NCBI RefSeq assembly: GCF_013350005.1
Contig: NZ_JABVWW010000019.1
Span: 1 to 56,201, forward strand
Direction: 5' to 3'
Source: Methylocystis silviterrae
Lineage (GTDB): Bacteria > Pseudomonadota > Alphaproteobacteria > Rhizobiales > Beijerinckiaceae
Length of the DNA: 56,201 bases
A program made the position numbers and the translations under genes. Under the pieces are notes generated by a model. That model saw only the letters and a program-made list of their open reading frames with translations. It made no database searches and was not told the DNA's origin. This document shows positions 25,045-48,926 of the stretch, in pieces (positions within the stretch are counted from its first letter, which is position 1; each line of letters begins with the position of its first letter).

Positions 25045-26649
25045 ATGACTACCGCGCCCGACGCCTTCCATCACGACATCGCCGATCGCCATGACAAGGT
25101 GCTGATCGTCGATTTCGGTTCGCAGGTGACGCAGCTCATCGCGCGGCGCGTGCGCGAGGCGGGCGTCTATTGCGAAATCGCGCCGTTCCAGAACGCCGAG
25201 CGCGCCTTCGCCGAGATCCGCCCCAAGGCGGTGATTCTTTCGGGCGGGCCCTGTTCGGTGACCGAAGAAGGCTCTCCCCGCGCGCCGCAGAGCATTTTCG
25301 AGTCCGGCGTGCCGGTGCTCGGCATCTGCTACGGCGAGCAAACGATGGCGACGCAGCTCGGCGGCACCGTCGAAGGCGGCCATCATCGCGAGTTCGGCCG
25401 CGCTGATGTGACGGCGCTGGAGCAGAGCGCGCTGCTCGACGGCGTGTGGGAGAAGGGCGGCAGCTTTCCTGTCTGGATGAGCCATGGCGATCGGGTGACG
25501 AAGCTGCCGGAAGGCTTTCGCGTCATCGCCGCTTCGGAAAATGCGCCCCTCGCCGCGATCGCGGATGAACAGCGGCGCTATTACGGCGTGCAGTTCCATC
25601 TCGAGGTCGTGCATACGCCGGACGGCGCCAGGCTGCTCTCGAATTTCGTGCACAAGGTCGCGGGGCTGAAGTCCGACTGGACGATGGCGGCGTTTCGCGG
25701 CGAAGCGATCGCGGCCATCCGGCGGCAGGTCGGCGACGGGCGGGTGCTCTGCGGCTTGTCGGGCGGCGTCGACAGCGCCGTCGCGGCGGTGCTGATCCAT
25801 GAAGCGATCGGCGAGCGCCTCACCTGCGTCTTCGTCGATCACGGCCTGTTGCGGCAGGGCGAGGCGGAAGAAGTCGTGCGGCTCTTTCGCGATCACTACA
25901 ACATTCCGCTGCATCACGTCGAAGCGGCGGACCTGTTCCTCGGCGCGTTAGAGGGCGTCGACGATCCGGAAGTGAAGCGCAAGACCATCGGCCGGCTGTT
26001 CATCGAGACGTTCGAAGCCGAGGCCAAGAAGATTGCGCAGGACGGGCGCGGCGCGCCGCAGTTTCTCGCGCAAGGCACGCTCTATCCCGATGTCATCGAG
26101 AGCGTCTCCTTCACCGGCGGCCCGTCGGTGACGATCAAGTCGCATCACAACGTCGGCGGATTGCCGGAGCGCATGAACATGCGGCTCGTCGAGCCGCTAC
26201 GCGAACTCTTCAAGGACGAAGTGCGGGCGCTCGGGCGCGAACTCGGACTGCCGGAAGCTTTCGTCGGGCGCCATCCGTTTCCGGGGCCTGGTCTCGCGAT
26301 CCGTTGCCCGGGCCTCATCACCCGCGAGAAGCTGGCGATTTTGCGCAAGGCCGACGCCGTCTATCTCGACGAAATCCGCAAGGCGGGATTGTATGACGAC
26401 ATCTGGCAGGCCTTCGCGGCGCTGCTGCCGGTGCGTTCGGTCGGCGTGATGGGCGACGGACGCACTTACGATTATGTCGTCGCGCTGCGCGCGGTGACGT
26501 CAAGCGACGGCATGACCGCGGATTTCTATCCCTTCGACATGAGTTTTCTGGGCCGCGCCGCCACGCGCATCATCAACGAAGTGAAGGGCGTCAACCGCGT
26601 GGTGTACGATGTGACGAGCAAGCCGCCGGGGACGATTGAGTGGGAGTGA
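25045..26649 (+). CDS. guaA: GMP synthase (glutamine-hydrolysing)
   Basis: 534 residues, full length. The class I amidotransferase domain has G-I-C-Y-G-E-Q-T-M (catalytic Cys) and H-L-E-V-V-H (a His-x-Glu pair). The ATP-pyrophosphatase domain has the P-loop [11 protein letters not shown]. The dimerisation domain ends P-P-G-T-I-E-W-E, the usual GuaA end. It converts XMP to GMP. The final 18 bases (26632-26649) are the insertion target of the downstream island, which keeps the gene intact. Confidence 0.98.
26632..26649 (+). other. Left attachment site (guaA 3' end)
   Basis: ACGATTGAGTGGGAGTGA, the last six codons of guaA. Compared with ACCATCGAGTGGGAATGA at 48909-48926 it differs only at three third positions, and GAGTGGGA is identical. 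That size and identity fit a tyrosine-recombinase core. The conserved peptide shows that the element's attP copies coding sequence so that guaA survives integration. Confidence 0.7.
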
Positions 26650-26767
26650 ATTAGGGTGGTTTCAGACCGTCCTGCTCCGTGCCAAAAATCGCACGATCTC
26701 TTTGACTGACAAGGATTATTTTTCCCACCCCGTATCGCTGCGTGTCACCACAGCCGGGCCACTTTGT

Positions 26768-26844
26768 TGGTAGCGATGTTGGTATGGCGCAGGATGGTCG
26801 AGAAACGGGCTTCCGATACCAACAGCCCATCTTGATGGTATCGG
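26768..26844. promoter_or_regulatory. Likely integrase arm site and palindrome before the integrase gene
   Basis: TGGTAGCGATGTTGGTATGG (26768-26787) matches 17 of 20 bases of 48835-48854 at the other island end in the same orientation. Next, CCGATACCA (26813-26821) and TGGTATCGG (26836-26844) form a perfect 9-base inverted repeat 25 bases before the integrase start. The shared GGTAT core suggests arm-type binding sites, with the palindrome possibly also regulating the integrase. Inferred from repeat pattern and position. Confidence 0.5.
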
Positions 26845-26869
26845 TTTGCCCCAGACCGGATGCGGATTT

Positions 26870-28219
26870 ATGGGTCATCTTACTGATAAAGAACTGAAAA
26901 TTCTGAAGCCGAGGGCCAAGCTTTATAAGGTGGCGGACCGCGACGGGATGCACGCAGCCGTCACGCCCACGGGTGTCATCTCGTTCCGATACCACTACCG
27001 GGTGAACGGACGGCAGGAGACGCTGACCATCGGCCGATATAGCGCCGAGGCGGCGCGCAAGCTCACACGGGCGCCCGACGCGCTGGAATACGGCATGGAG
27101 GTGTCGCTTGCGGAGGCCAGGACGCTGCTGGCGCGCGCTCGGCGTCAGGTCGAGCGGGGTGAGTCGCCGTCGAAAGCCAAGGTGGAGAAACGCACCGCGT
27201 CAGCCGAGGCGGTGACGTTCGGCGGATGGGCGGAAGCCTATTTCAAGCACAAAGCCGATCCCAAGTCGGGGGCCGAGAAACTGGCCGACAGCACCCTGGC
27301 GATGCGCCGATCCGTCTATGACCGCGCCATTGCGGGAGAGTTGTCGAAGCTCAAGCTGGCGGAGGTGACGCCGCAGCGTCTCAAACGTCTGTGCGACGAG
27401 GTTAAGCAAAAGCGCGGGCCGGCCGTTGCCGTGCATGTCCGCGAGGTCGTGTTGCTGGTGTTCCGCCATGCTCAGGGAAGCGGGCTGGACGTGAGCAACC
27501 CAGCCGAGTCGATCCGCACCAGCACTATCGCCACGTTCGAGCCGCGCGAGCGCGCCCTGTCTCCATCGGAGGTCCGCGCGGTCCTGGCGGCGTTGGATCA
27601 TGTGACGGCGGCGCCCACGTTGCGCTCAGCGGTGAAGTTTGTCCTGCTGACCGGCGTCCGCAAGTCGGAGTTCATCGACGCCACATGGAAGGAAATCGAC
27701 TTCGCCGCCGCGCGCTGGACGATCCCGGCCGAGCGCATGAAGGCAGGCAAGGCGCATGTCGTCCCGCTGAGCGATCAGGCTCTGGATATCCTGACGGCGT
27801 TCCGCACCATGTTCGGCGCCAGTCGATACCTGCATCCGGGCCGATACGATGGCGATACGCCCATCAGCAACGCCACGCTCAACCGCGTAATCGACACGGT
27901 CGTAGAGCGCATCCGAGAGGATGATCCCGACTTTCAGAGCTTCGGCGTTCACGACCTGCGCCGCACGTTCTCGACCGGCTTAAATCGCGCCAAGTTTGAT
28001 GATCGGTGGATCGAGATGAGCTTGGCCCACGCGCCCCGGAACCGGATCGCGGCCGTCTACAACGTGAATCGCTACCTCGCCGAGCGGAAGATCATGCTTC
28101 AGTGCTGGGCTGATATGCTCGACGCCTGGGTGAAGGGCGAATCCGCGAGAGAGCTGATCGCCGACGCGAAGCGACGCGCCGCCGAGGTCCACGACGACGA
28201 AGTGGACGACGATCTCTGA
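26870..28219 (+). CDS. Tyrosine site-specific integrase of the guaA island
   Basis: 449 residues from M-G-H-L-T-D-K-E-L. Domain order: arm-binding DUF4102-like N-terminus (K-L-Y-K-V-A-D-R-D-G-M-H then G-R-Q-E-T-L-T-I-G-R-Y), SAM-like core-binding, then the catalytic domain with T-G-V-R-K-S-E-F (Arg), H-D-L-R-R-T (His/Arg), S-L-A-H-A-P (second His) and Tyr in A-A-V-Y-N. P4-type integrases like this use tRNA or guaA ends. It converges with alpA, whose stop is 2 bases away. A second, broken integrase at 49024-50307 is the same type. Confidence 0.93.
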   Translation: MGHLTDKELKILKPRAKLYKVADRDGMHAAVTPTGVISFRYHYRVNGRQETLTIGRYSAEAARKLTRAPDALEYGMEVSLAEARTLLARARRQVERGESPSKAKVEKRTASAEAVTFGGWAEAYFKHKADPKSGAEKLADSTLAMRRSVYDRAIAGELSKLKLAEVTPQRLKRLCDEVKQKRGPAVAVHVREVVLLVFRHAQGSGLDVSNPAESIRTSTIATFEPRERALSPSEVRAVLAALDHVTAAPTLRSAVKFVLLTGVRKSEFIDATWKEIDFAAARWTIPAERMKAGKAHVVPLSDQALDILTAFRTMFGASRYLHPGRYDGDTPISNATLNRVIDTVVERIREDDPDFQSFGVHDLRRTFSTGLNRAKFDDRWIEMSLAHAPRNRIAAVYNVNRYLAERKIMLQCWADMLDAWVKGESARELIADAKRRAAEVHDDEVDDDL

Positions 28220-28220
28220 A

Positions 28221-28544
28221 CTACGTGCGGCTCGCGTCCATTCTGTCAGTCGTTGTCATTGTGGCCCGCCAGCCAGCGGGATCGGCGATCCATCGGTCGA
28301 TTTCGGATTCATGCCAGCCCGCGCCGTTGGCGCTGATTTTGATCTGTGCGGGGAACGTGCCCTCGGCGATCTTGCGGTAAATGGTGGAACGGGACAGGCC
28401 GCTCCGGGCGAGGACGGTTCTCAGGCGGATGATACGGTCTGGTTGGCGCACGGCTGCCTTGCCTTCTTCTGGCTTTGTCTGACTGCTCCCGAGCCAGACA
28501 GGACAAGGATTTATCGCCTGTGCAAGAGGGGTTTTGCGCGCCAT
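28221..28544 (-). CDS. AlpA-family (MerR-like HTH) regulator
   Basis: 107 residues from 28544; longer starts overlap the relaxase end. The AlpA core is R-L-R-T-V-L-A-R-S-G-L-S-R-S-T-I-Y-R-K-I then G-T-F-P-A-Q-I-K, with W-H-E-S-E-I-D-R-W-I at the end of the domain. AlpA proteins activate island integrase or excision genes. It lies 37 bases beyond traA on the same strand and could be expressed with it, tying excision to transfer. Confidence 0.85.
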   Translation of the reverse strand: MARKTPLAQAINPCPVWLGSSQTKPEEGKAAVRQPDRIIRLRTVLARSGLSRSTIYRKIAEGTFPAQIKISANGAGWHESEIDRWIADPAGWRATMTTTDRMDASRT

Positions 28545-28581
28545 CGCAGCGTGGCGCGCCGGCGGCGGAAAATAGGCGGGG

Positions 28582-31506
28582 TCAAAGTCCGATGTTCCGG
28601 CCTCTGCCAAGGTCGATGCCGTGGCTGAAGGCGAGCTCCAATCCGAGTCGGCGGCCCGATTCGACCCCGATTCCGAGGTCTCGCTTGCGGCCGGCGAGGA
28701 TCGACTCGAGCTGCGGATCGCGTTCGAGGCTCATCACCATGTCGCCCATCGCCGATCGCGTGGCCTTGTAGCCGGACATGTCCGCCGCCTGATACTGGCG
28801 CTGGCTGGTTTGGCCGAGTTCCCGCCAGCGTTCCACGAAGCGATCGGCGCGGCGCTGCGGATCGGTGCGCAATTCGGTTTCGAGCTGTAGGGCGCGGATG
28901 GCGCGGGCGGTGCGCCCCGTAGCCGCTTCCGAGGCGAGTTCCGGGTTCTTCTTGTAGGCGGCTTCGGCATCGTGCGAGCCATAAGGCCGCACCTCCTCGA
29001 AGACCTTGCGGGCCTCCTGCAATTCCTTCACCTGCTCCGGGTTGGCCTTGCCGCCTCTCTCCTGCATCTCGAAGATCGCATCCGCGGCGCGGGCATGGCG
29101 GATGAGCGACTTGGTGCGGGCGCGACGCAGCGCCGCTTCCGGGTCTTCCGCTGCCTTCCTTTCCGGCCCCTGTCCGCCGGCGGCGGGCAGATGCAGGCCG
29201 TCGAACATGCCGCGCACCTTCTCGGACGCCTGCTTGACGATCTCGACGACTCGCTCCATGCGCTCGCGGAAGGTGATGCCGCGCCGTTCGGCATAATCGC
29301 GCGCGGGCTCGAGCCGCTCGTAATCCGACGCCATATCCTTGGCCCGGTCGCGCGACAGGGCGCCGAGAAGCCGGTCCTGGCTCGTGAAGTCGTCATGGCC
29401 ATAATGCAACTCCATGCCGTCGCGGTGGCGCGACAGCGCGACATAGGCGCCGTGGGCGTCCAGGCCCGGCGTGGCCAGAACATGGGTGCGGTCCACGGTC
29501 ATGCCCTGCGCCTTGTGAATGGTTGCGGCATAGCCGTGGTCGATGCGGTCGTAATCCTTCAGGTCAAAGCGAACGGAACGGCCATCATCGGTGCGCACGC
29601 TCATGCTCTGCGTGCTGACCTCTTCGATGGCGCCGAGCGTGCCGTTCTTGACGCCGAGGCCGCGCTCGTTCTGAAGGAACATGACGCGATCTCCGCGAGC
29701 GAAGCTTCGCTCACCGCGTTCGACCACCAAGCGCACCTCGGCGCCGAGATTTCCGGCTTCCCGCATTCTGCCGCGCGCGGCCTCGTTCAAAGCGCGCACC
29801 TCGTCATTGGTGTGGGTGAGGATGATACGGCTGCGGCCCGGCGACGCCTGACGGTCGCGATCCCAGCGGTCGATCAGATCGTCGCGCGCCTGTTGCCGTG
29901 TCGCAGCGGCATGGACCATGCCATGTTTGTCATAGGCATGGAGCGCATCTGCGGTTCGGCCGGTCGCCAGATCGCGCGTTGCGTCGCGCTGCCAGTCCTC
30001 CCGCTGGCGGCGCACCTCGCCGATCTCCGCCCCACCGTGACGTTGGTGGATAGACCGGAACGCCGCGCCGGCTTCGATGGATTGCAATTGTTGCGGATCG
30101 CCGACCAGCACCACCTTGGCGCCGGCCTCGGCGGCATGAGACAGCACGCGCTCCAACTGGCGCGTGCCGACCATGCCCGCCTCGTCGATCACCAGAACAT
30201 CGCGCGCGGTGAGCACATCGCGGCCCTGTCCCCAACCGTGTTCCAGGCTGGCGATGGTGCGCGACGAGATGCCCGATCCGCTTTCGAGATTCTCGGCGGC
30301 GATGCCTGACAGCGCCACGCCTCGAACCTCGTAGCCCGCCGCTTCCCAGGCTTCGCGCGCCACACCCAGCATCGCGCTCTTCCCCGTTCCGGCATAACCA
30401 ACGACGACGCCGAGATCGCGCCCGTCCGTGACGTGCGCCAGCGCGTCGGCCTGCTCTCCCGAAAGGAAAAGACCGCGCGCTTCCGCGCGCGCAAGTGCCG
30501 CTTCACGGTCCCTGTCACCGACCTCGTGGCGCTCCTTCGCAGCCATGAGGTCGGCAGCGCGGTGCAGGCGTTGCTCGGTCTCGATCATCTGGCGTGTGGT
30601 GAAGCGATCCTCGCCCCGTCCATCCTTGCCCAATTGGACGAGATCGGGCGCCTCCCGCATCGCGCTCATCACCGCATTGAACTGGTCGCTCCCGTCGCTG
30701 TGCCGGTGCGCGAACATCGCCATGTCGCGCCGTGTGAAGGTCGATTGCTGATGCGTGATGGCGTCGAGCGCCAGGGCGGGATCGGCGATGATGCGCTCGC
30801 CATTGCCGCGTGCGATCTCGCGATGCATTTCCGCGCGGTCGGCGGCCTCGATCCCTTCGCCTTCGATGCGATGCGCGGGCGCGCCGATCTGACTTTGCGG
30901 CTCCAGCGCGATGCCCTGCGCTTCCAGGCTGCGATGATCGATACGCGCGTCGACGTCGAGTTCGGCCAAACACTCGTTGGCAAGCTCCGCCCAACGCTCC
31001 CGCCAGCGTTCGAGCAACTCGGTGCGGTTCCACTCCCGCACCTTCGGACCGAAGCCATTCTCGTCAACCGAGCGCATGGTCAGCATGACATGCGCGTGGG
31101 GCTTCAGCATTCCGTCCTCGGCCATATCCCAATGCACATTGAGGTCGGCGATCATGCCCCGATCCACGAATTCGGACCGCACGAAATCACGGGCGAGTTC
31201 GATGCCTTGGCGCTCCGTCATCTCGCGCGGAAGGGCGAATTCGACTTCGCGGGCGAGCTGCGAATCTCTTCTGACCTCGACCGTCTCGACATCGTTCCAA
31301 AGTCGTTCGCGGTCCTTCCACGCCTCCGGCGCATTCTCCGGCAGCATCACCTCGGAATGGACGACGCCGTGCTTGTCCGAGAAATCGTGACTGCGCCCGA
31401 GCCTGTCGTCGCGCAACCGCGAGGCCGAGCGGTAGGCGGCGGACGCCACCGCGCTGGAGCCGCATTTGCGGCCGATGACCTTGACGTGAAGATGATAGAT
31501 CGCCAT
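28582..31506 (-). CDS. traA: Ti-type conjugative relaxase TraA (MobA/MobL)
   Basis: 974 residues. The N-terminal MobA/MobL relaxase domain starts M-A-I-Y-H-L-H-V-K-V, with the probable catalytic Tyr in A-A-Y-R-S-A and the HUH-type K-P-H-A-H-V-M-L. An AAA/UvrD-like helicase follows with V-G-Y-A-G-T-G-K-S (about residue 370), V-I-D-E-A-G-M and G-Y-A-A-T-I-H-K-A-Q-G. It nicks oriT and unwinds DNA for transfer. Divergent from traC across oriT, as in Agrobacterium Ti plasmids, though about 100 residues shorter. Confidence 0.93.
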   Translation of the reverse strand: MAIYHLHVKVIGRKCGSSAVASAAYRSASRLRDDRLGRSHDFSDKHGVVHSEVMLPENAPEAWKDRERLWNDVETVEVRRDSQLAREVEFALPREMTERQGIELARDFVRSEFVDRGMIADLNVHWDMAEDGMLKPHAHVMLTMRSVDENGFGPKVREWNRTELLERWRERWAELANECLAELDVDARIDHRSLEAQGIALEPQSQIGAPAHRIEGEGIEAADRAEMHREIARGNGERIIADPALALDAITHQQSTFTRRDMAMFAHRHSDGSDQFNAVMSAMREAPDLVQLGKDGRGEDRFTTRQMIETEQRLHRAADLMAAKERHEVGDRDREAALARAEARGLFLSGEQADALAHVTDGRDLGVVVGYAGTGKSAMLGVAREAWEAAGYEVRGVALSGIAAENLESGSGISSRTIASLEHGWGQGRDVLTARDVLVIDEAGMVGTRQLERVLSHAAEAGAKVVLVGDPQQLQSIEAGAAFRSIHQRHGGAEIGEVRRQREDWQRDATRDLATGRTADALHAYDKHGMVHAAATRQQARDDLIDRWDRDRQASPGRSRIILTHTNDEVRALNEAARGRMREAGNLGAEVRLVVERGERSFARGDRVMFLQNERGLGVKNGTLGAIEEVSTQSMSVRTDDGRSVRFDLKDYDRIDHGYAATIHKAQGMTVDRTHVLATPGLDAHGAYVALSRHRDGMELHYGHDDFTSQDRLLGALSRDRAKDMASDYERLEPARDYAERRGITFRERMERVVEIVKQASEKVRGMFDGLHLPAAGGQGPERKAAEDPEAALRRARTKSLIRHARAADAIFEMQERGGKANPEQVKELQEARKVFEEVRPYGSHDAEAAYKKNPELASEAATGRTARAIRALQLETELRTDPQRRADRFVERWRELGQTSQRQYQAADMSGYKATRSAMGDMVMSLERDPQLESILAGRKRDLGIGVESGRRLGLELAFSHGIDLGRGRNIGL

Positions 31507-31536
31507 CGCGATCCGAACAACATCACAGCGAAGCGC

Positions 31537-31587
31537 ACGTCGGAACGACGTATAAGCGCGCCCTCCCTCGAAAAATTCTCGGGAGGG
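31537..31587. other. oriT, RSF1010/Ti type
   Basis: Between divergent traA and traC lies a perfect inverted repeat ACGTCG-GAA-CGACGT (31537-31551), followed directly by TAAGCGCGCCCTCCC (31553-31567). RSF1010-family nick regions read TAAGTGCGCCCTCCC, so only one base of this core differs. By analogy the nick falls between GCG and CCCT. A second imperfect hairpin (CCCTCCCTCGA against TCTCGGGAGGG) follows at 31561-31587. Confidence 0.75.
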
Positions 31588-31678
31588 ACCACGCCGTCCC
31601 CAACCGTCCCGGCGACCTTACAGCGTTTCGGCAAGCGCTCGACTATTATCGCTCCATCAACAGCATGTGGAGGACATG

Positions 31679-32005
31679 ATGCGCAAGCCACGGGACTTCG
31701 ACGTGGAACTGAAGTCGCTCGAACACAAGGCGCGAGACCTCAGAAACCGCAAGGTGCAACAGCTTGGCGAGCTGGTCATTTCGACAGGAGCCGACGCGCT
31801 CAACGCGGAAGAACTGGCGGGAGCGTTGATCGTGCTGGCCGAAACCAAGGATGCCGGAAAGAGGGAGGCATGGGCGAAACGCGGGGCCGCATACTTTCAG
31901 GGCCGGTCGCGACGAACTGCGTCGGCGCCTGGCCGCGACACTAGCGGCGCTTCAGCGCAACAGAGTGGCGCGCAACAGTCATCAGGCGGCACAGGCGCGG
32001 CATGA
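31679..32005 (+). CDS. traC: Conjugal transfer protein TraC
   Basis: 108 residues from the second of two adjacent ATGs (31676, 31679), chosen by its distance from GGAGG at 31669. The TraC pattern is in E-H-K-A-R-D-L-R-N-R-K-V-Q-Q-L-G-E-L-V and I-S-T-G-A-D-A-L-N-A-E-E-L-A-G-A-L. It is part of the Ti-type DNA-processing complex with TraA and TraD at oriT. The Ser/Gly/Gln-rich tail is disordered. traD begins after one base. Confidence 0.8.
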   Translation: MRKPRDFDVELKSLEHKARDLRNRKVQQLGELVISTGADALNAEELAGALIVLAETKDAGKREAWAKRGAAYFQGRSRRTASAPGRDTSGASAQQSGAQQSSGGTGAA

Positions 32006-32006
32006 T

Positions 32007-32273
32007 ATGCGAACATGGCAGATCGAGCGCCGCAAGCGCACGCGGCACCTGATCGAACTCGGCAGCCTCGTCGTCAAGGCGGGCGTTGTCGAACTCACTG
32101 GCGACGACCGCGCCATCCTCTACGGCGCGCTGCTCTGGATGGCCGACAAGTTGCAGAGCGAGGACGGCGAACGGGCGCGCGGCGTCTGGATAAAGCTGGG
32201 AAAGAAGGCGTTTGAGGCGGATCGTCCAGCAGACACGCATGACAGAACGCAACCGCCGCAGGACCGGGCGTGA
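32007..32273 (+). CDS. traD: Conjugal transfer protein TraD
   Basis: 88 residues from ATG 32007, starting one base after the traC stop. It shows the short TraD signature R-T-R-H-L-I-E-L-G-S-L-V-V-K-A-G-V, then D-R-A-I-L-Y-G-A-L-L-W-M-A. An accessory protein of the Ti-type relaxosome. In Ti plasmids traG (coupling protein) follows; here a perfect inverted repeat and then an oppositely oriented defence gene follow, so the transfer set is cut at this point. Confidence 0.8.
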   Translation: MRTWQIERRKRTRHLIELGSLVVKAGVVELTGDDRAILYGALLWMADKLQSEDGERARGVWIKLGKKAFEADRPADTHDRTQPPQDRA

Positions 32274-38330: not shown

Positions 38331-38339
38331 ATCTCACTA

Positions 38340-38412: not shown

Positions 38413-38541
38413 TTTTCCAATATGATGCTACGGCGGCTTCGGTTCCTGCCGTAATTTGCCGCGAGGACCGTGGACCACCACTATCTTCTCGAATTTTCTG
38501 ATCCTCTATATGCTTCACGGAGCGCGACTCACGGCGGGCGC

Positions 38542-38736
38542 ATGGCCGACGAAATACTGACGATCCGGGAGGTGGCCGAGCTTCTCAAGCTCAATGAGAA
38601 GACCGCCTACAAGCTCGCCCTTGCGGGCGAGATTCCCGGCTTCAAGGTCGGCGGGTCGTGGCGGTTCGAGCGGCAGGCAATCGCAAGCTGGATCAAGCGC
38701 AAGGTCGAGGAGCAACAGAAAGGGCGACCGGCATGA
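38542..38736 (+). CDS. Small excisionase-like HTH protein
   Basis: 64 residues from M-A-D-E-I-L-T-I-R-E. Its MerR/Xis-like helix-turn-helix is L-T-I-R-E-V-A-E-L-L-K-L-N-E-K-T-A-Y-K-L, then W-R-F-E-R-Q-A-I-A-S-W-I. It leads the restriction-like operon, with the methyltransferase starting 19 bases after it, so it is more likely the operon's controller than an excisionase. The frame extends upstream without a better start. Confidence 0.75.
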   Translation: MADEILTIREVAELLKLNEKTAYKLALAGEIPGFKVGGSWRFERQAIASWIKRKVEEQQKGRPA

Positions 38737-41485: not shown

Positions 41486-42498
41486 TGAGTGGATTTGCCC
41501 ATAATCTTGCATCGGGTACGACAACGTTATTAGAGATCGCGCGGGTTCGAGCTGCAATTTCGGCAGACAACTTTTTCGGGTGTTTCGCTTACGCAACCCA
41601 GTCCGGCTTCAGAGTATTCGAATTGAGCGTCGGAAAGGATTTTTGGACTGGAACTGAGTCGCGATGGCTGTTTGGTATTGACTATGGCAGGACAGACCCA
41701 CGCGCATTGCGCGAGATTGCTGGTCGCCCAAATACGGAAGTTCGAATTTTTGACGGACGTTTTGTCGTAGATCGAGTCGGCTTTGTTCCGCGCCGCGACT
41801 TCCACCCGAAGGTAGCGATGATGAAGAACACGGCTTCCGGTAAGCAGGGAGTTGTACTCGGCTCTGGGAATTTCTCGTACAATGGTCTTCGACGCAGTAT
41901 AGAAGCCGGCTCGGCTATCATAGCCGCGACAAAGGTCGATTTTAATGAGCACGTTGAGCCTGTCCGCTCAGTATTCGAGAAGCTTTGGGAGGACGCCTGT
42001 CCGCTAGACGAGATCGCAAAGGATTATGAAACGCGTTTGGCCAGCCTAATCAATTCGCGGGATACGAAGAGACCGGTCAAAGGGGAAGGTCCAATTAAGG
42101 GATTTTGGATCGAGGCAGGCTACGTCACCAAGAACCGTGGACCGGACAAGCCGGGAAATCAAATATTTGCTCCCAATGGCTTCCGACGCTTTTTTGGCCT
42201 CAAGAAGGGCAAGGGCAGCTCGACCCACATCGGCGAAATCACCTTTGAAACTGAGACGGGTCCAAGGGTCACAAAGAATTATCGAGAGAATGACAACGCC
42301 ATGGAAAAATTGACCCTGCCAATGCCTGAGGATCATGGTTTCGGTGTTTATGATGGCAAGGTTCTGATCTTTGAGCCGAAAGGTAAACGGTTTTTGTTGA
42401 CTGCAGTCGAGCTTGCCGATTTTGAGCTGATCTATGGGTATCGGGTGGCGAATGTTAATAAGATGGCTGGAGGAAGACGTTTTGGGGAGTTGATTTAA
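41482..42498 (+). CDS. PLD-family nuclease, 338 residues
   Basis: One HKD site: F-H-P-K-V-A-M-M (H108, K110) and G-S-G-N-F-S (127-132), so it would act as a dimer like BfiI-type nucleases. A C-terminal beta-rich domain (T-H-I-G-E-I-T-F-E-T-E-T-G-P-R) may bind DNA or the partner. It overlaps the methyltransferase by ATGA and precedes the helicase by 3 bases. The B. subtilis yeeABC cluster, as I recall it, has no PLD gene at this place. Confidence 0.78.
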   Translation: MMSGFAHNLASGTTTLLEIARVRAAISADNFFGCFAYATQSGFRVFELSVGKDFWTGTESRWLFGIDYGRTDPRALREIAGRPNTEVRIFDGRFVVDRVGFVPRRDFHPKVAMMKNTASGKQGVVLGSGNFSYNGLRRSIEAGSAIIAATKVDFNEHVEPVRSVFEKLWEDACPLDEIAKDYETRLASLINSRDTKRPVKGEGPIKGFWIEAGYVTKNRGPDKPGNQIFAPNGFRRFFGLKKGKGSSTHIGEITFETETGPRVTKNYRENDNAMEKLTLPMPEDHGFGVYDGKVLIFEPKGKRFLLTAVELADFELIYGYRVANVNKMAGGRRFGELI

Positions 42499-42501
42499 GC
42501 C

Positions 42502-44547
42502 ATGGTCTCTATCCCGTCCGTCTCCGTCACCTATGCGCACAACGGCAGCTCGACCAAGGCCAATGCTCTCGGCATGAGGCCGATGCAGGAGCGCGTCTAT
42601 GAGAAGCGGGGCGAGCAATACCTTCTCATCAAGTCGCCGCCGGCTTCCGGCAAGAGCCGCGCGCTCATGTTCGTCGCACTCGACAAACTCGCAAACCAGG
42701 GGCTCAAGCAAGCCATTATCGTCGTGCCGGAGAAGAGCATCGGCGCGAGCTTCAACGACGAGCCGTTGACCAAGTATGGATTTTGGGCGGATTGGCACGT
42801 CGAGCCGAAGTGGAATCTCTGCAACGCGCCAGGCGGTGATAACGGCGGCAAGGTCAATTCCGTTGAGGTGTTTTTAGGTAGCGGCGACAAGGTGCTGGTT
42901 TGCACCCACGCCACCTTCCGCTTCGCTGTGGACGGGTTCGGCGTGGAGGCGTTCGATGACCGCCTCATCGCCGTGGACGAGTTCCATCACGTCTCGGCCG
43001 ATCCCGACAGCAAACTCGGCCAGCATCTCGGTCAACTGATCGCCCGCGAGAAGACGCATATCGTGGCGATGACGGGTTCGTATTTCCGTGGTGACGCCGT
43101 GCCGGTGTTGACCCCACAGGACGAGGCGAAATTCGAGTCCGTCACCTACACCTATTACGAACAGCTCAACGGCTATGAATATCTGAAACAGCTCGACATC
43201 GGCTATTTCTTCTATTCCGGCTCTTATGCCGACGACATTCTCGCCGTCCTCGACCCCGCCGAGAAAACCGTCATCCACATTCCGAACGTCAATTCGCGTG
43301 AGAGTACGAAGGACAAGATCAAGGAAGTGGAACATATCATCGGTGCGCTCGGCGATTGGCAGGGCATCGACGCCGCCACGGGCTTCCAGCTTGTCAAAAC
43401 ACCGGACGGCCGGACGCTTCGCATCGCCGATCTCGTTGATGACGAAGCGAACAAGCGCGACCGTGTTTCCCTGGCTCTGAAAGACCCTGCGCAGAAGAAC
43501 AACCGCGACCATGTGGACATCATTATCGCGCTGGGCATGGCCAAGGAAGGCTTCGACTGGATCTGGTGCGAGCACGCTTTGACGGTGGGCTATCGCTCTA
43601 GCCTCACCGAGATCGTGCAGATCATCGGCCGCGCAACCCGCGATGCACCGAACAAGACCCGCGCGCGCTTCACCAATCTGATCGCCGAACCCGATGCCGC
43701 CGAGGATGCCGTGACCGAGGCCGTCAACGACACGTTGAAGGCCATCGCCGCCAGCCTGCTCATGGAGCAAGTGCTTGCTCCGCGCTTTGAGTTCAAGCCG
43801 AAGAACCCGCAAAGCAGGCCGACCTCTGGCTTCGACTATGGTGAAGGCGGCTACGATCCGAACAAGTGCAATGTTGGTTTCAACGAGGAGAGCGGTGTCT
43901 TCCAGTTCGAGATCAAGGGCCTTGTCGAGCCCAAGAGTCACGAGGCTGCGCGTATCTGTCAGCAGGATTTGAACGAGGTGATCGCCGCCTTCGTTCAGGA
44001 CAAGACCACCATCGAGCGCGGTCTGTTTGACGACGAGCTGGTGCCCGAGGAGCTGACGCAGGTTCGCATGGGCAAGATCGTGAAGGACAAATATCCCGAG
44101 CTGAGCGATGAAGATCAGGAGGCGGTGCGCCAGCACGCTATCGCCGCGCTCAACATTACGCAGCAGGCCAAGCAATCCATGCTTGATCGCGTGAGCGGCG
44201 AACCCACCGCCAACACCGCCCTGATCGACGGCGTGCGCAAGTTTGCGATGGACGTGCGCGAACTCGACATCGACCTGATCGACCGCATCAACCCGTTCAA
44301 GGAAGCGTATTCGATCCTCGCCAAAACGATGAACGAGGAACGCTTGCAACAGGTGAAAGCCGCGATTGCCGCGAAGCGCACTACGCTGACGCCGGAGGAG
44401 GCGAAGGAATACGCCGTGCGCACGGTTAAGTTTAAGAAGGAGCGCGGACGGCTGCCTTCGATCAACTCGACCGATGCCTGGGAAAAGCTGCTGGCCGAAG
44501 GCGCAGCCACCTTCGTGCGCTTCAAGGATGAGGGCCGCTATGAGTGA
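42502..44547 (+). CDS. Superfamily 2 helicase, YeeB-like
   Basis: 681 residues. Motifs: Walker A in S-P-P-A-S-G-K-S-R (about residue 45), Walker B D-E-F-H (about 158), motif III M-T-G-S-Y, and motif VI Q-I-I-G-R-A-T-R. It should translocate on DNA and feed nucleases in a restriction-like reaction. It starts after GGGGAG, 3 bases from the PLD gene, and ends in an 8-base overlap with the GIY-YIG gene. Closest remembered neighbour pattern is YeeA-YeeB-YeeC of Bacillus. Confidence 0.88.
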   Translation: MVSIPSVSVTYAHNGSSTKANALGMRPMQERVYEKRGEQYLLIKSPPASGKSRALMFVALDKLANQGLKQAIIVVPEKSIGASFNDEPLTKYGFWADWHVEPKWNLCNAPGGDNGGKVNSVEVFLGSGDKVLVCTHATFRFAVDGFGVEAFDDRLIAVDEFHHVSADPDSKLGQHLGQLIAREKTHIVAMTGSYFRGDAVPVLTPQDEAKFESVTYTYYEQLNGYEYLKQLDIGYFFYSGSYADDILAVLDPAEKTVIHIPNVNSRESTKDKIKEVEHIIGALGDWQGIDAATGFQLVKTPDGRTLRIADLVDDEANKRDRVSLALKDPAQKNNRDHVDIIIALGMAKEGFDWIWCEHALTVGYRSSLTEIVQIIGRATRDAPNKTRARFTNLIAEPDAAEDAVTEAVNDTLKAIAASLLMEQVLAPRFEFKPKNPQSRPTSGFDYGEGGYDPNKCNVGFNEESGVFQFEIKGLVEPKSHEAARICQQDLNEVIAAFVQDKTTIERGLFDDELVPEELTQVRMGKIVKDKYPELSDEDQEAVRQHAIAALNITQQAKQSMLDRVSGEPTANTALIDGVRKFAMDVRELDIDLIDRINPFKEAYSILAKTMNEERLQQVKAAIAAKRTTLTPEEAKEYAVRTVKFKKERGRLPSINSTDAWEKLLAEGAATFVRFKDEGRYE

Positions 44548-45763
44548 CCTTGACCTTGATGAACTGCGCGACGAACTCGCGGATTTCGCCCAGCCTGAAA
44601 AGAAGGGCGGACGCTCCGCGCGCGAGGAACGCATCATTGCGGGCTTCGAGGAAATTCAGCGTTTCGCCGATCAGCATGGCCGCCCCCCGCAACATGGCGA
44701 GGGGCGTGACATCTTCGAGCGGCTTTACGCCACGCGCCTCGACCGCCTGCGCGCGCTGGAGGAGTGCCGTTCTCTTCTTGCACCGCTCGATCACCAAGGC
44801 TTGCTTGCGGTTGCAGAGGATGCGGTTGCCGCTCTAGCGGAGGAAATGGACGACGATGAGCTGCTCGCCGAGCTAGAGGGCGCGGCAGGCGCGACGGACA
44901 TCACCGATCTTCGCCACGTCCGCACCACCGCCGAAAAGCGCGCCGCCGCGGAAATCGCCAACCGCGAACGATGCGAGGATTTCGACCGCTTCAAGCCCCT
45001 ATTCACGGCTGTTCAGAACGACCTCGATACCGGCGTGCGCATCACCCAACCGATCCGCAAGGACGCTGGCTTCCTGAAAACCGACATCAGGACCGGGGAG
45101 TTTTTCATCCTTGGCGGCCAGGTCGCCTACATCGCCGAAGTCGGTGAGCCCTTCAAAGCGCCCAACGGCCAAAGCGACGCCCGCCTTCGCGTCATCTATT
45201 CCAACGGCACCGAGAGCGACCTGTTGCTCCGCTCTCTGCAACGCGCCCTCTACAAAGACGAGGTGAGCCGCCGCGTGTCGGAACCGAGCGCCGGGCCGCT
45301 GTTCGCCAACGAAAGCGAAGCCGACGACCTCGCCAGCGGCGCCATCTATGTTCTGCGCAGCCAGTCGGACAATGCCATTGTCGCCGCCAACCGCGACCTC
45401 GTTCACAAGATCGGCGTCACCGGCGGCGATGTCGCCAAGCGCATCGCCAACGCCAAGCTGGACCCGACCTTCCTGCTGGCGGACGTGGAGATCGTGGCGA
45501 CCTACAAGCTGTTCAACATCAGCCGCATCAAGCTCGAAAACCTGATCCACCGCATCTTCGACCCGGCCCGGCTCGACATCGAGATCAAGGACAGGTTCGG
45601 CAACGCGGTCATCCCGCGTGAATGGTTCCTTGTGCCGTTGTTCGTGGTCGATGACGCGGTGGAGAAGATCAAGGACGGCACGATCACAGGATATGTCTAC
45701 GATCCGAAGAGCGCCAGTCTTGTAAAGCACAGCGCGTCGCCTTTGCCGGGGGGCTTGACATGA
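44540..45763 (+). CDS. GIY-YIG nuclease (T5orf172-type), YeeC-like
   Basis: 407 residues from ATG 44540, which overlaps the helicase stop by 8 bases (ATGAGTGA); the earlier ATG at 44474 is within the helicase. The N-terminal part is acidic and helical. The GIY-YIG domain is at about residues 270-370: G-A-I-Y-V-L-R-S, then V-H-K-I-G-V-T-G-G-D-V-A-K-R-I, with the E in K-L-E-N-L-I-H. It may supply the cut for the methyltransferase/helicase system. Its stop overlaps a truncated fifth gene. Confidence 0.83.
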   Translation: MSDLDLDELRDELADFAQPEKKGGRSAREERIIAGFEEIQRFADQHGRPPQHGEGRDIFERLYATRLDRLRALEECRSLLAPLDHQGLLAVAEDAVAALAEEMDDDELLAELEGAAGATDITDLRHVRTTAEKRAAAEIANRERCEDFDRFKPLFTAVQNDLDTGVRITQPIRKDAGFLKTDIRTGEFFILGGQVAYIAEVGEPFKAPNGQSDARLRVIYSNGTESDLLLRSLQRALYKDEVSRRVSEPSAGPLFANESEADDLASGAIYVLRSQSDNAIVAANRDLVHKIGVTGGDVAKRIANAKLDPTFLLADVEIVATYKLFNISRIKLENLIHRIFDPARLDIEIKDRFGNAVIPREWFLVPLFVVDDAVEKIKDGTITGYVYDPKSASLVKHSASPLPGGLT

Positions 45764-45840
45764 GCAATGTCAACGTCAGGCGTTTGGCCGAGAATATCCG
45801 TTCCAGCACTAATCTAAGTGTAACGGCGGAAGTCGGATGA
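45760..45840 (+). pseudogene. 5' stub of a lost fifth gene of the restriction-like operon
   Basis: ATG 45760 overlaps the GIY-YIG stop (ATGA), the coupling used throughout this operon, and gives M-S-N-V-N-V-R-R-L-A-E-N-I-R-S-S-T-N, then a short tail to TGA 45838-45840. N-V-R-x-L-A-E-N-I-R-S-x-T resembles the first residues of GHKL-type ATPases (followed by V-Y-T-P-I-x-E) found beside such helicase genes. The match breaks at about 45811, within 3 bases of the Argonaute stop. A fusion point of two modules. Confidence 0.55.
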
Positions 45841-47262
45841 GACCGCTGTTCCAAATTCGACGTGCTTGAGAATGCGCCCGACCTCACGCGCCGCCTTGAT
45901 CGGCGCCGGAAGCTTCTGATCGAACTGCGTCGTATTCCAGTTCACCTTCGTCAGCGCGAGCACGTCCTTCCCCAGCGTCAGGATTTTGCTGTCCGAATTC
46001 TCATGGGGCACAAGCAGCAAAGGGCGCGGCACGCGCAGACCGGGGAATGTCCCGTAGAACGGCACGCTGCCGCGCGTATACAGTAGGCCCTTGCCGCCCA
46101 AATCGACGAATGTCCCGCGCAGAACGGGATAATTGCCGTCCCGGAAAATGGCGATTGGTGAACTCTCCTGCACCCATACGAGGTCGGACATCTCGATGCC
46201 GGACTTCCCAAGAGCGGCGTCGATGCCCTCCGCCTCTTCAGGACGGAAGCGCGAGGTCTTCAGGACCACCAGTCGCGCAGGCACATGGCGGTGATGCGCT
46301 TTGTACGCCGCGATGGATTGCACCACGAGTTCTTCCGCGTCTTGGGCGGTCAGATATGGGTGACGCCCCCGCGTCTCCGTCTGCGCGCGCGCGCCGCGCA
46401 GAATGAGACCGCGACCACGCTCATCGAACATCTGCGCGGTGCTGGTCCAGAGTTGCTGACCGTCGAGGTCACGATAGAATCCGATGCCCAGGAAGCTTGT
46501 GCGGTATTCTGCCTGATCGGGCAGCAAACGCCACGGCACCTTGCCCGCCTTGTAGAAGAGCGCGTTGAGAAGATTCCACGCGCGCGTCGCCTTTACCTGC
46601 GTTTGGCGGTTGCTGTCGCGTTTGACTTTGCGGGGGATTTTCGCGGCATCATCCCACGTATCCGGCCAGACGATCTGCGTCGGGACCGGCAGGTGAAGCG
46701 TCTTCGCCTTGAGCAGGTCACGGAAGTTGAGCATGTCGCCCCCGTCATCGTCGTCGTCGCTGTCTTCCACTTCGCTCTTGGCGTTGACGAGCTTTTCGAT
46801 GAGCGGAGTGGGGAGGGCCAGAACAATTACGTCGGGCTTCGCGCTGCCTTCGACCAGAGCCGAAAGCTGCGACGTGATCAACTCGACGGCATGGCGGACC
46901 GCTTCGTCGTGACGGCCTATGCCGGTGATTTCATTGACCTGACGCCGGGAAATAGTGGCCGTAGCCCCGTCCGGCACCTCGAACTTGCAGCGGAACGGGT
47001 TCTGATTGCCCAGACCCGGAAAATCCGGGTTGAGATTAATAAGCTGCTTGTTTCCGCTTTCGATGCCGCGTCCGGTTTCTCCCAGAAATTCCGTGAATCC
47101 GGCAACGGTGTCGTCCGTACCGATGACGCCAACGCGGATAACGTCGCCGGAACGCGGTTGCAACGGCCCATGCTCGCGCAAACCCTGACGCGGATCGCAA
47201 TGCTGTCCGCCATCGCCAAATTCAAGCATCGGCTCGTCAAAGACATGTGCCTTGAAAATCAC
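45814..47262 (-). CDS. Short prokaryotic Argonaute (MID-PIWI), SPARDA type
   Basis: 482 residues. The N-terminus L-E-F-G-D-G-G-Q-H-C-D-P-R-Q-G-L and V-G-V-I-G-T-D, the middle K-A-T-R-A-W-N-L-L-N-A-L-F-Y-K-A-G and F-L-G-I-G-F-Y-R-D, and the end L-T-K-V-N-W-N-T-T-Q-F-D then A-A-R-E-V-G-R-I-L are typical of PIWI in short pAgos. These lack N and PAZ domains and usually a full catalytic tetrad, and they use a guide to sense invader nucleic acid. It overlaps the DUF4365-APAZ gene by ATGA. Confidence 0.9.
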   Translation of the reverse strand: MIFKAHVFDEPMLEFGDGGQHCDPRQGLREHGPLQPRSGDVIRVGVIGTDDTVAGFTEFLGETGRGIESGNKQLINLNPDFPGLGNQNPFRCKFEVPDGATATISRRQVNEITGIGRHDEAVRHAVELITSQLSALVEGSAKPDVIVLALPTPLIEKLVNAKSEVEDSDDDDDGGDMLNFRDLLKAKTLHLPVPTQIVWPDTWDDAAKIPRKVKRDSNRQTQVKATRAWNLLNALFYKAGKVPWRLLPDQAEYRTSFLGIGFYRDLDGQQLWTSTAQMFDERGRGLILRGARAQTETRGRHPYLTAQDAEELVVQSIAAYKAHHRHVPARLVVLKTSRFRPEEAEGIDAALGKSGIEMSDLVWVQESSPIAIFRDGNYPVLRGTFVDLGGKGLLYTRGSVPFYGTFPGLRVPRPLLLVPHENSDSKILTLGKDVLALTKVNWNTTQFDQKLPAPIKAAREVGRILKHVEFGTAVSSDFRRYT

Positions 47263-48593
47263 CCGATGCCCCCTTCCTCAAAGAGGTCCTGCGCTTCCAT
47301 CTCCTTGGCTCGCGGATCGGTCCGGTTCCATGAGGACTCCGGCACCGCCTGAGACAACTGGATCACCGGGAGGCGCTCGAATTGCAGTAATGGCGCAGGT
47401 TTGTCGGCATCGAACAGGCCAACTTCGTGTTTGCCGCTCTCGACTAGCAGGTGCTGCCACATCATCACCTGACCGCGCACGGCGGCGTTGCGTTCCAGAC
47501 GCTTCTTGCCTGCCAAAAGCGCCTCTGGATAACGGTGCGGTTGAAAGCCGTCCGTGGTGAAATAAAAATCAGGATCGACAACTACGAACCATTCATCAGC
47601 AAGGCGTTCGAACCGAAGCCGCGCCGCATGGTGCCGAACGTAGCCACGGCCTTCCTTCTTCTTGCTCGCGTAGGCACTCACGACCTTGGCAGAGGTTTCA
47701 TTGATGTTGGACATGTAGCGGTAGCTGCGCGATTTTCCGACCCCGACCGCCTTGAAGTGGAAAAGCCTGTCTTTGCGGAGAAAGGAAAGCTGCGCCGTTG
47801 TCTGTCGCTCGACCGTGCGCCGCAACAAATCCATTGTGTCGTTGATGTCGTCGCGTTCGTCGTTGAATGCGATGAGTTTGGTATCAACGGCCTCGACCTG
47901 ATCGAGATCGATAATCGCGCGGGTGCCGTACTCCCTGGGATCGAAGAAAGAGACAAAGCGCCGCTTGCGGATTACCCAATCGAACCGAATGTTGCTGTGC
48001 TTTACTAGTTCGGGCACGGCGTCGCGCCCGCTGCCGAATGGCGAGGTTGAGATGAAGATTTCATCCGGCAACTTGACGCGCAGCAGGTTGATGATGGCGT
48101 CCTCGCCCTGATTGAGCGGGGGCAGGAAAACGCCCGGCGTGCGACGATCAATGGTGAGCGCGCCAATGCGATCAGCGCAGCGCGGATCGAATACGTCGGC
48201 CTTCTTATCGAACTTCAGGCGGCGTTCCTCGCCCCTGACGCAATCGCTAACGTCCTTCCAATACGCCGTTTCATCGGACTTCCGCCAAAGGACGATGATG
48301 ACGGGGATGTTGGAAGTGCGCCAGTATTTCAGATCGTCCGGCTTGAGAAGGTATTCAAAGCCGTTGTCGTTCTCGCGGACATATTGGCCGCTACCGGTGG
48401 ATTTGACCTGGACCCCGAGCAGCTTGCCGAGCGGCGCGCCGCTCTTTGGATCGCGCAGTTCGACGATGCCGTCTGTGCCCGCTTCGAGGCGCCCACGCTG
48501 CTCGTAAAGAAAGCCGGTTTCGAGAACGATCTTTTTGATCGCTGTCTCGCCCAACTCGCCCAGAACCTGGCTATCGGTGATTCGCTTCGACAT
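47259..48593 (-). CDS. DUF4365 nuclease fused to an APAZ domain (DREN-APAZ)
   Basis: 444 residues. The first 110 form a DUF4365 PD-(D/E)xK nuclease: G-T-D-G-I-V-E-L (D41, E45) and V-Q-V-K-S-T (Q62, K64). The rest fits APAZ, the domain that joins short Argonautes: F-F-D-P-R-E-Y-G-T-R-A, then Y-V-R-H-H-A-A-R-L-R-F and F-Y-F-T-T-D-G-F. In SPARDA, activation by guide-target pairing unleashes indiscriminate DNA and RNA cutting, killing the infected cell. Function by analogy with SPARDA. Confidence 0.87.
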   Translation of the reverse strand: MSKRITDSQVLGELGETAIKKIVLETGFLYEQRGRLEAGTDGIVELRDPKSGAPLGKLLGVQVKSTGSGQYVRENDNGFEYLLKPDDLKYWRTSNIPVIIVLWRKSDETAYWKDVSDCVRGEERRLKFDKKADVFDPRCADRIGALTIDRRTPGVFLPPLNQGEDAIINLLRVKLPDEIFISTSPFGSGRDAVPELVKHSNIRFDWVIRKRRFVSFFDPREYGTRAIIDLDQVEAVDTKLIAFNDERDDINDTMDLLRRTVERQTTAQLSFLRKDRLFHFKAVGVGKSRSYRYMSNINETSAKVVSAYASKKKEGRGYVRHHAARLRFERLADEWFVVVDPDFYFTTDGFQPHRYPEALLAGKKRLERNAAVRGQVMMWQHLLVESGKHEVGLFDADKPAPLLQFERLPVIQLSQAVPESSWNRTDPRAKEMEAQDLFEEGGIG

Positions 48594-48908
48594 GCCGCAT
48601 CATACGGAGCTTCGGAGGCATTCTGAACAACTATGTTCCCGTTATGTTTTTGCAAAGCTTGTGCAACAGCCTGTTGGGCGGGCGTGCCGAACGCTGTAGG
48701 TGGTGTCCAGCGAGGCTGCCACAGCGAGAAGGGCGAGGGGGGGGCCTTCTCCCAAAGCTCGTTTATGATGCGAGTGCGTTTATAGCGGGACGGATCGCCA
48801 TATAGAATCCACGAATCCAGCGCCCTTACCCTGGTGGTATCGCAGTTGGTATGGGCTTGGGGCCTGAGCGGAAAGCCAAATAGTTACAATGTGAACTCAA
48901 ACCCATTG
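48594..48908. other. Right-end spacer with integrase arm repeat
   Basis: No gene is seen here. It should hold the promoter of the SPARDA-like pair (minus strand). TGGTATCGCAGTTGGTATGG at 48835-48854 repeats 26768-26787 (17 of 20 bases, same orientation) and lies 54 bases inside the right attachment site, so it is the probable second arm-type site. Confidence 0.5.
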
Positions 48909-48926
48909 ACCATCGAGTGGGAATGA
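48909..48926 (+). other. Right attachment site, guaA-end mimic
   Basis: ACCATCGAGTGGGAATGA codes T-I-E-W-E-stop like the guaA end, with synonymous changes only (see 26632-26649). It marks the right end of the island, and at the same time it could serve as the left end of the second, decayed element, whose integrase follows 100 bases later in the same direction. Confidence 0.7.

Follow-up and report, generated by a model that had tools for sequence, protein, structure and literature searches.

The stretch of DNA analysed here, an entire contig of 56,201 nucleotides from Methylocystis silviterrae (hereafter the window), carries the GMP synthase gene guaA and, farther downstream, a second copy of the end of that gene, which raises the question of what kind of element lies between the two. 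Positions 26638-48922 (∼22 kb) constitute, with high probability, an integrative and mobilizable element (IME) that is inserted at the 3′ end of guaA and joins a largely fixed kit of mobility genes to two slots of interchangeable defence modules. Its genes encode, in this order, a tyrosine integrase, an AlpA-family protein, TraA, a pair of TraD-like proteins, a PLD/ZacA-like pair, AbiEii, AbiEi, the proteins of an MmeI operon, a short Argonaute and a DUF4365-APAZ protein.

The host gene guaA (25045-26649, forward strand; assigned from its open reading frame (ORF), its translation and relatives with an empty site) is intact, its 3′ end serves as the integration site, and the reading frame is retained up to the final TIEWE and stop codon. 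The end of guaA is repeated at 48909-48926 (ACGATTGAGTGGGAGTGA versus ACCATCGAGTGGGAATGA, 15 of 18 positions identical), and an exact 8-bp core, GAGTGGGA, stands on the forward strand at 26638-26645 (attL) and at 48915-48922 (attR) with a spacing of 22,277 bp. The 15/18 repeat alone is weak evidence, and it is the comparative data that prove the ends. A family search, in which an alignment of seven integrases was compared with a species-level genome collection, yielded 63 loci, 50 of which were retained (L077-L125 and L128, from 48 assemblies, L079/L080 and L120/L124 sharing one each) for an integrase whose best segment shows an identity of 86% or more. We find that (i) the left arm, from the guaA stop codon to the integrase, measures 223-228 bp in 42 of these 50 loci, (ii) the right arm (48744-48922 including the core, forward strand; homology in relatives starts at 48744) is detected, as 48744-48926, in 30 of the 43 genomes searched, the right arms compared terminating in TTGAC(C/G)ATCGAGTGGGA, and (iii) guaA sites are empty in two genomes of the same genus (G023 and G028), where the chromosomal flank, which lies on contig C20 in the window's own genome, follows within ∼30 bp of guaA. 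A chance repeat was rejected, since both arms recur in other genomes; in the Erythrobacter element, the exact core was looked for at the right end and not found. The duplication of the guaA end and the island that an earlier note on this DNA had proposed are thus borne out. We also looked for an invariant gene order without empty guaA sites, and for ends lacking homology in relatives, and encountered neither: apart from the two empty sites, guaA 3′ ends are loaded differently in many relatives, with same-genus inserts of varying size (up to ∼113 kb in G021), and the ends of the element are homologous across related genomes. A further sign of insertion at guaA is a 46-codon second guaA end (85%) that lies ∼1.8 kb behind the gene in another same-genus genome (G032:C35:11716-11853). 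The stretch immediately before guaA (24505-25026) contains repeats, both inverted and direct, that are imperfect and rich in G and C.

The kit begins with the integrase (26870-28219, forward strand, from an ATG at 26870 in an ORF that opens at 26846; Phage_integrase E = 6e-23, Arm-DNA-bind_3 E = 1e-14), which is 86-99% identical to its relatives at the 50 loci. It is followed by the AlpA-family gene (28221-28610, reverse strand; Phage_AlpA at 28287-28439, E = 5e-17; PDB 8c3t, E = 9e-4), a part of the kit overlooked in the earlier note, which lies directly downstream of traA, probably encodes an excisionase and is located in a stretch conserved in other elements. The traA gene itself (28582-31506, reverse strand) encodes a relaxase-helicase with MobA/MobL (MobA_MobL E = 2e-73) and AAA_30 (E = 9e-60) domains, the plasmid relatives of which carry the annotation Ti-type TraA, and two TraC/TraD-like relaxosome proteins are encoded on the forward strand at 31667-32005 (PF06412 TraD, E = 2e-18) and at 32007-32273 (ATG at 32007 in an ORF that opens at 31851; PF06412 TraD, E = 5e-21). 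The family matches hence agree with the integrase, the TraA and the two traC/traD-type genes named in the earlier note. The interval that separates traA from the TraD-like genes contains CGTCGGAACGACGTATAAGCGCGCCCT (31538-31564, forward strand), in which an inverted repeat, CGTCG/CGACG, precedes TATAAGCGCGCCCT. This sequence very probably represents the oriT, since a similar one is found beside traA on plasmids of Mesorhizobium, Paracoccus, Jannaschia and sphingomonads. All 37 rows that include the N-terminus of TraA, representing 33 distinct elements, contain the 12-bp nick-like motif TAAGNGCGCCCT exactly once; the surrounding 27-mer is exact in 36 of them and differs by one spacer base in Rhizomicrobium. 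The pattern has a single match in the whole genome even when three mismatches are allowed. These results favour the oriT claimed earlier. Integrase, AlpA gene, TraA, oriT and TraD-like genes are all uninterrupted in the window.

No match to secretion families was obtained among the 14 ORFs of the element that were scanned, and the assignment as an integrative and conjugative element (ICE), which requires a complete set of type IV secretion genes, was accordingly rejected. What remains is the make-up of an IME: an integrase with attL and attR, empty sites, a TraA relaxase, an oriT recognized from its sequence and, among the ORFs scanned, no secretion genes. The earlier statement that other transfer genes are absent thus holds within the element alone; beyond 48922, a remnant of another guaA element is found.

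The family is not confined to Methylocystis, and describing the island as a vehicle 'for the species', as was done earlier, sets the scope too narrowly: the integrase is found across Alphaproteobacteria. It forms one near-full-length piece in 39 of the 50 loci, and its hosts (among them Methylosinus, Xanthobacter, Nitrobacter, Devosia, Sphingobium, Acetobacter, Roseomonas and Defluviicoccus) are, by record title, alphaproteobacterial with one exception, which is titled Verrucomicrobia. In a family sample, 35 of 248 genomes match the integrase at 1e-60, eight of these (own genome included) at 85% identity or more. We compared the window with the 33 loci having both guaA and integrase at near-full length (34 genomes, 561 pairs): the median nucleotide identity is 72.3% for guaA and 89.1% for the integrase, the integrase is the more similar of the two in 559 of the 561 pairs, and there is hardly any relation between the distance matrices of the two genes (r = 0.13, permutation p = 0.084). 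When compared with the window, X. aminoxidans exhibits 75.2% identity for guaA, 96.3% for the integrase and 95.7% for traA, and Methylosinus 82.6% for guaA and 95.5% for the integrase (nucleotide level), so that recent movement is implied. These identities show a wide horizontal spread of the element family. For 42 loci the available DNA extends 7 kb or further past the integrase; TraA is nearly full in 30 of these and partial in two (L097, L098). Among the loci outside the usual left-arm length, the distance from guaA to the integrase is 172 bp in L110 and is cut by contig ends in L086 and L120; L095, L115, L121, L122 and L128 have the core and no guaA before it, as expected for elements in second place of a tandem. 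In the exceptional host (L117, Verrucomicrobia bacterium LP2A), the copy is degraded, with the integrase in two pieces (73% and 94%), AbiE at 85-96%, no TraA, and a guaA only 55% identical to that of the window; transfer between phyla, or contamination, might account for it. Three other loci (L100, L101, L102) have a full-length integrase (92-93%) with no TraA in the next 10 kb and are possibly larger or composite members; the right-end match lies ∼40 kb off on the same contig for L101, and further away for L100 and L102 if the contigs are the same.

Cargo was compared in 26 elements, namely the window, G127, G263, G282, G129, G205, G170 and 19 elements named after their hosts, or in 27 when G694 (see below) is added. 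They are not a random draw from the 50 loci: the choice fell on loci with a right end no more than ∼30 kb away and on the same contig, a criterion biased towards compact members, and the loci without TraA (L100-L103, L107, L113, L117, L123, L125 and L128) are outside the set. Contig ends truncate G282 and G129, G293 was excluded for its partial integrase, four of the records are also family loci (L077 = G127, L081 = G263, L090 = G129, L112 = G282), and the 19 named elements were typed by local homology and by 50 selected large ORFs, all gene calls being ORF-based. A match was termed 'strong' if a protein either hit a model other than AbiE at a PADLOC E-value no higher than 1e-20 or shared 65% identity or more with such a protein. 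By this measure, 22 of the 27 elements have strong non-AbiE defence, two have weak matches and three have none; 40 of the 50 further cargo proteins match the defence library at 1e-8 or better, two of them as AbiEii.

The cargo differs widely from element to element. The window holds a PLD/ZacA-like pair, an MmeI operon and SPARDA. Type I restriction-modification (RM) genes are accompanied by SIR2-HerA in Methylosinus sporium (G127), by a TGT/QueC/TIR cassette in Methylocapsa (G263) and X. autotrophicus AM3, by the same cassette and a GajA-like protein in Defluviicoccus, by HEC-01A in Devosia, by PDC-S06 in Jiella, and by PDC-S06 and a phospholipase effector in Arboricoccus; they are the defence type matched in Xanthobacter YC-JY1, Ancylobacter gelatini and Erythrobacter. 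Type III RM is found with a DrmD-like helicase in Sandaracinobacteroides, with TmtA in dw_265, with SPARDA in Roseomonas and (by homology) in G694, and, as a type III RM-like system, with PDC-S19 in Gluconacetobacter aggeris; a type III methylase is found in Hyphomicrobiales SCN18. ZorA is present in G129 (where the contig ends), Druantia type III in G205, QatA/QatC with PD-T7-1 in G170, and an MmeI operon each in Nitrobacter winogradskyi and an alphaproteobacterial metagenome-assembled genome (MAG). All these labels are model matches, and the names do not prove function.

Comparison of individual modules indicates that they move as units between elements. HsdR of G127 or G263 is 97-98% identical to that of Arboricoccus, Jiella, Defluviicoccus and X. 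autotrophicus AM3, with HsdS at most 42% identical or without a match in the same comparison; the TGT/QueC/TIR cassette is 89-98% identical across three genera; and the MmeI operon recurs with its helicase at 86-96% and the MmeI N-terminus at 86%, versus 47-51% for the target domain. The edges are likewise conserved: homology at the left edge of slot B ends at 38717/38718 in four elements (G127, G263, L150, L159), that of the right arm starts exactly at 48744 in nine of the 25 other rows matched, and slot A is closed in G127, G263 and G205. As judged from these alignments, compact members keep the kit and exchange the cargo. The second gene of the MmeI operon is itself variable, being PLD-like in the window (41482-42498) and encoding 277 residues in Nitrobacter and 347 residues in the MAG (loci L143 and L145), and in the latter two a 713-residue gene, which the window does not have, follows the operon.

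Slot B of the window contains the module that can be related to a solved structure. A short prokaryotic Argonaute (45814-47262, reverse strand; PADLOC pAgo_I, E = 2e-166) and a DUF4365 (DREN)-APAZ nuclease (47259-48593, reverse strand; DUF4365 E = 2e-29; PADLOC Aga_REase E = 2e-163; PDB 9qbq_A, E = 3e-290) are encoded side by side, which is the composition of SPARDA. The DREN nuclease residues D41, Q62 and K64 of the window translation, counted by eye rather than from a pairwise alignment, are the counterparts of the active-site residues D41, Q60 and K62 of NbaSPARDA (PMC12205087). The window proteins, a predicted SPARDA, have the same short Argonaute and DUF4365-APAZ make-up as the SPARDA of 9qbl, 9qbq and 9qcc and NbaSPARDA (PMC12205087). 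One of 14 genomes from the genus to which X. autotrophicus AM3 belongs, G694, encodes a 97% identical Argonaute (94% for APAZ), which is identical to PDB 9qbl_B in 482 of 482 residues and resides on an element of the same type (16.4 kb), with guaA, integrase (94%), TraA (77%), oriT, SPARDA and right core. In 13 of these 14 genomes guaA was found. The IME integrase stands no more than 1.5 kb from it in three, a member of the other integrase family does so in eight (partial in two), and two have neither, so that occupancy of the site differs between close relatives. In X. autotrophicus AM3 (L122, 7944-9452), a neighbouring stretch of the array encodes a distant relative of the short Argonaute (27%), a little upstream of the IME integrase.

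The remainder of slot B, which extends from abiE to the right arm, is occupied by the MmeI operon on the forward strand: an MmeI-type IIG restriction-methylation enzyme (38756-41485, ORF opening at 38594; MmeI domains, REase_MTase_IIG E = 1e-265), the PLD-like protein (PLDc_2 E = 0.0099, below the cut-off), a DEAD/ResIII helicase (42502-44547; DEAD E = 5e-6; at least 8000 homologues) and a T5orf172/MUG113 (GIY-YIG-like) protein (44474-45763; MUG113 E = 1e-12, T5orf172 E = 7e-11). Slot A, from traD to abiE, holds on the reverse strand a PLD-domain, ZacB-like protein (32468-34822; PLDc_2 E = 4e-8, ZacB E = 3e-14) and a weakly ZacA-like partner (34819-36360; ZacA E = 1e-5; no Pfam match at 0.01), and the same pair occupies slot A of L086 and L089 (86-87%). 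We did not adopt the Zac label, which by a definition inferred from the PADLOC model names calls for ZacA-, ZacB- and ZacC-like proteins together: the ZacA and ZacB matches are as given, and ZacC had no match among the ten window proteins scanned. Between the slots lie, on the reverse strand, the adjacent genes of the nucleotidyltransferase toxin AbiEii (36646-37506; PF08843 E = 8e-40, PADLOC AbiEii E = 6e-103) and the antitoxin AbiEi (37503-38330; PF09407 E = 6e-32, PADLOC AbiEi E = 1e-101), which together make up an AbiE type IV toxin-antitoxin system, and a conserved block (38331-38717) that ends at the left edge of slot B. All ten scanned cargo and AbiE ORFs of the window fall in defence-type operons.

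The four defence modules counted in the earlier note (PLD pair, AbiE, MmeI operon and SPARDA) were thus all matched, except that AbiE appears to be kit more than cargo. In 18 of the 26 elements it is located behind traD, either next to it or separated from it by slot A, and the reading as ordinary cargo was therefore set aside. The subfamily of the window is present in 12 of the 26 (in pieces in X. aminoxidans and Roseomonas), a second AbiEii subfamily in six, and neither in eight. This distribution suggests that AbiE is a maintenance part of the kit, and it may have an anti-phage role in addition.

The site holds more than one element. Behind 48922 begins a second one, missed in the earlier note, with an integrase split in two ORFs (49080-49457 and 49555-50307, forward strand; Pfam matches) and an AlpA domain (50354-50503, reverse strand; Phage_AlpA E = 3e-11), and related integrases (77-88%) stand beside guaA in five same-genus genomes (G021, G009, G030, G003, G017). 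A third copy of the guaA 3′ end is located on contig C20 (79% over 63 bp). Judging by their translations alone, the genes to its left are trbI and trbG, and in G021 and G030 this trb-like stretch has a match in the DNA that follows guaA at a distance of 2-8 kb. We read the site as a tandem array of guaA, the IME, the decayed second element and then, probably, the far end on C20, the contigs C10 and C20 adjoining by inference from the empty sites and not by assembly. Of the 26 right flanks, four lead into the other guaA integrase (window, where it is split, Nitrobacter, Sandaracinobacteroides and, in part, X. YC-JY1), one into pieces of the present IME integrase (Ancylobacter) and 21 into neither family, so that a tandem partner is sometimes, and not usually, present. 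The right flank of X. aminoxidans retains left-arm-like sequence.

Several observations weigh against an intact IME dedicated to exchangeable defence. The remaining ten of the 42 loci with sufficient DNA have no TraA, with the integrase full-length in L100-L103 and L107 and broken or partial in L113, L117, L123, L125 and L128, and the oriT motif was found in none of these ten in the DNA retrieved behind the integrase, which indicates that the integrase also resides on other or decayed elements. G170 is without most of TraA, some copies (Shinella) have broken genes, and the family is uncommon, with an integrase match of E ≤ 1e-150 in four of 397 genomes of the order, own included. The window's own genome does contain TrbE-family genes (C16, C13, C7), coupling-protein matches (C7, C35, C27, C23) and VirB1/VirB3/VirB4-type neighbours (C16 and C13), and none of the TrbE and coupling candidates could be tied to the oriT of the IME, the pattern of which occurs once in the genome. 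The relatives that are broken or have no TraA, along with the decay of the neighbouring second element, would be in line with a decayed island whose transfer genes are relics and whose cargo is by now vertically kept defence. We consider this very improbable, given that the kit genes and oriT are uninterrupted in the window, and that the integrase identities to Methylosinus and X. aminoxidans, far above those of guaA, imply recent movement. It is also improbable that the IME and its neighbour move in cis, as one composite reaching up to the guaA end on C20. The trbG- and trbI-like genes beside that end, the match of the C20 stretch to DNA close behind guaA in G021 and G030, the other element's integrase in four of the 26 right flanks and the five loci with a core and no guaA before it would all suit a composite; on the other hand, the second integrase of the window is split, most right flanks have no integrase of either family, and the C10-C20 adjacency is the deduced one mentioned above.

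The dominance of defence requires a more cautious reading. Three elements have no strong non-AbiE match (G282, X. aminoxidans and, with a scan that did not extend to its other ORFs, Shinella), Rhizomicrobium (HEAT-ARM_XIII, 9e-43) and X. oligotrophicus (GajB, 1e-36) were counted as weak on account of part-length matches to a small portion of the model, and 10 of the 50 cargo proteins have no match at 1e-8. Moreover, the cargo of the relatives was scanned with a defence library only, in which non-defence functions would appear merely as no match, and the defence share stands without a background rate from control islands. With this restriction, the claim of a cargo that is almost entirely defence holds for the window island and its compact relatives. 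Defence loading might then be a by-product, the IME being a general one that carries anything and defence being dominant on it because it is common on mobile elements, as was described for those of E. coli (PMC10121019). We deem this conceivable, yet on the unlikely side, in view of the strong matches in most inspected elements, the large majority of further cargo proteins with library matches, and a window in which every scanned cargo and AbiE ORF falls in a defence-type operon.

Taking the element as a guaA-specific IME with exchangeable defence cargo, we propose the following cycle. The tyrosine integrase inserts the element at the last guaA codons, at the core, with the left end supplying the final stop codon so that GuaA is unchanged. 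Excision would be promoted by the AlpA-type protein, the gene of which adjoins traA. Next, with the TraC/TraD-like proteins, TraA would nick oriT, and the strand would exit through the type IV secretion channel of another element. AbiE behind traD probably stabilizes the element, and the defence modules, which may act against phages, are probably swapped by recombination in the shared flanks, both slots having conserved edges.

GIsul2 was considered as a close relative, a reading disfavoured by the plasmid-borne integrase matches, all of which are below 60% identity, the best at most 57%. In the one A. baumannii region examined, the integrase of which may be that of GIsul2, an AlpA gene lies beside the integrase. 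An IME review lists GIsul2, the IncP island of Brucella suis and ATE-1 as inserted in guaA, with the same type of integrase and the same 3′-end insertion; the IncP island, to which it likens GIsul2, has a MobP relaxase and mating-pair proteins, whereas a Ti-type TraA and no secretion genes were found here (PMC5704250). The traACD IMEs of Mesorhizobium (IMEMl R88B type) share the layout, with Ti-like traACD, divergent genes flanking oriT and the recombination directionality factor downstream of traA, but are located at other sites (radC, tRNA genes), and one encodes an adhesin; the main text of that report, searched for 'defence' in the British spelling only, contains neither that word nor 'restriction' (PMC8627217). 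Mesorhizobium ICEs specific for guaA, including tripartite ICEs (IntG), are likewise integrated by a tyrosine integrase, but are described as large and conjugative with secretion genes of their own, a comparison made by description and not by alignment of the integrases (PMC8627217, PMC9973854). The defence IMEs of E. coli also use fixed hotspots, and one element type can hold different systems, yet they concern one species and many element types, and no class-wide kit is mentioned in the parts of that paper examined (PMC10121019). Finally, the guaA-pgrR defence island of Stenotrophomonas maltophilia has a similarly varied defence content beside guaA, but belongs to a gammaproteobacterium, and the part of the paper examined names no IME (PMC11680222). 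Hence, guaA IMEs, defence-carrying IMEs, traACD IMEs, guaA ICEs and a guaA-side defence island are already in print; no paper on the present family was found in the openly licensed literature, the scope of our search being exclusive of subscription papers and preprints. What is unusual here is the defence share of the compact members and the breadth over which one kit has spread.

It is tempting to speculate, at somewhat less than an even chance, that this one IME kit represents a class-wide system for the exchange of immunity in Alphaproteobacteria, in which the largely fixed kit (integrase, excisionase, relaxase, oriT and, in most cases, AbiE) moves between orders and the two slots acquire and pass on entire defence modules by recombination at guaA between a resident copy and an incoming one; the ten loci without TraA behind the integrase have slightly lowered our expectation. 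If so, one small family would circulate SPARDA, Druantia, Zorya, Qat, SIR2-HerA, type I and type III restriction as well as unnamed modules, and would provide a concrete vehicle for fast turnover of immunity, with the same kit at the same address carrying different weapons across the class. The structurally solved SPARDA of the Xanthobacter group is placed on this vehicle. The question of transfer becomes testable with one oriT and one relaxase, and, owing to the fixed cargo edges and conserved flanks, cargo can be read mechanically from any genome at guaA. The unnamed cargo would then turn out to be a rich source of new systems. Several large proteins without a strong match in the defence library are encoded where other copies hold defence systems, in L142 (1234 residues), L146 (10514-14712; 1029 and 370 residues) and G282 (1327, 982 and 623 residues), and we regard them as candidates for such systems.

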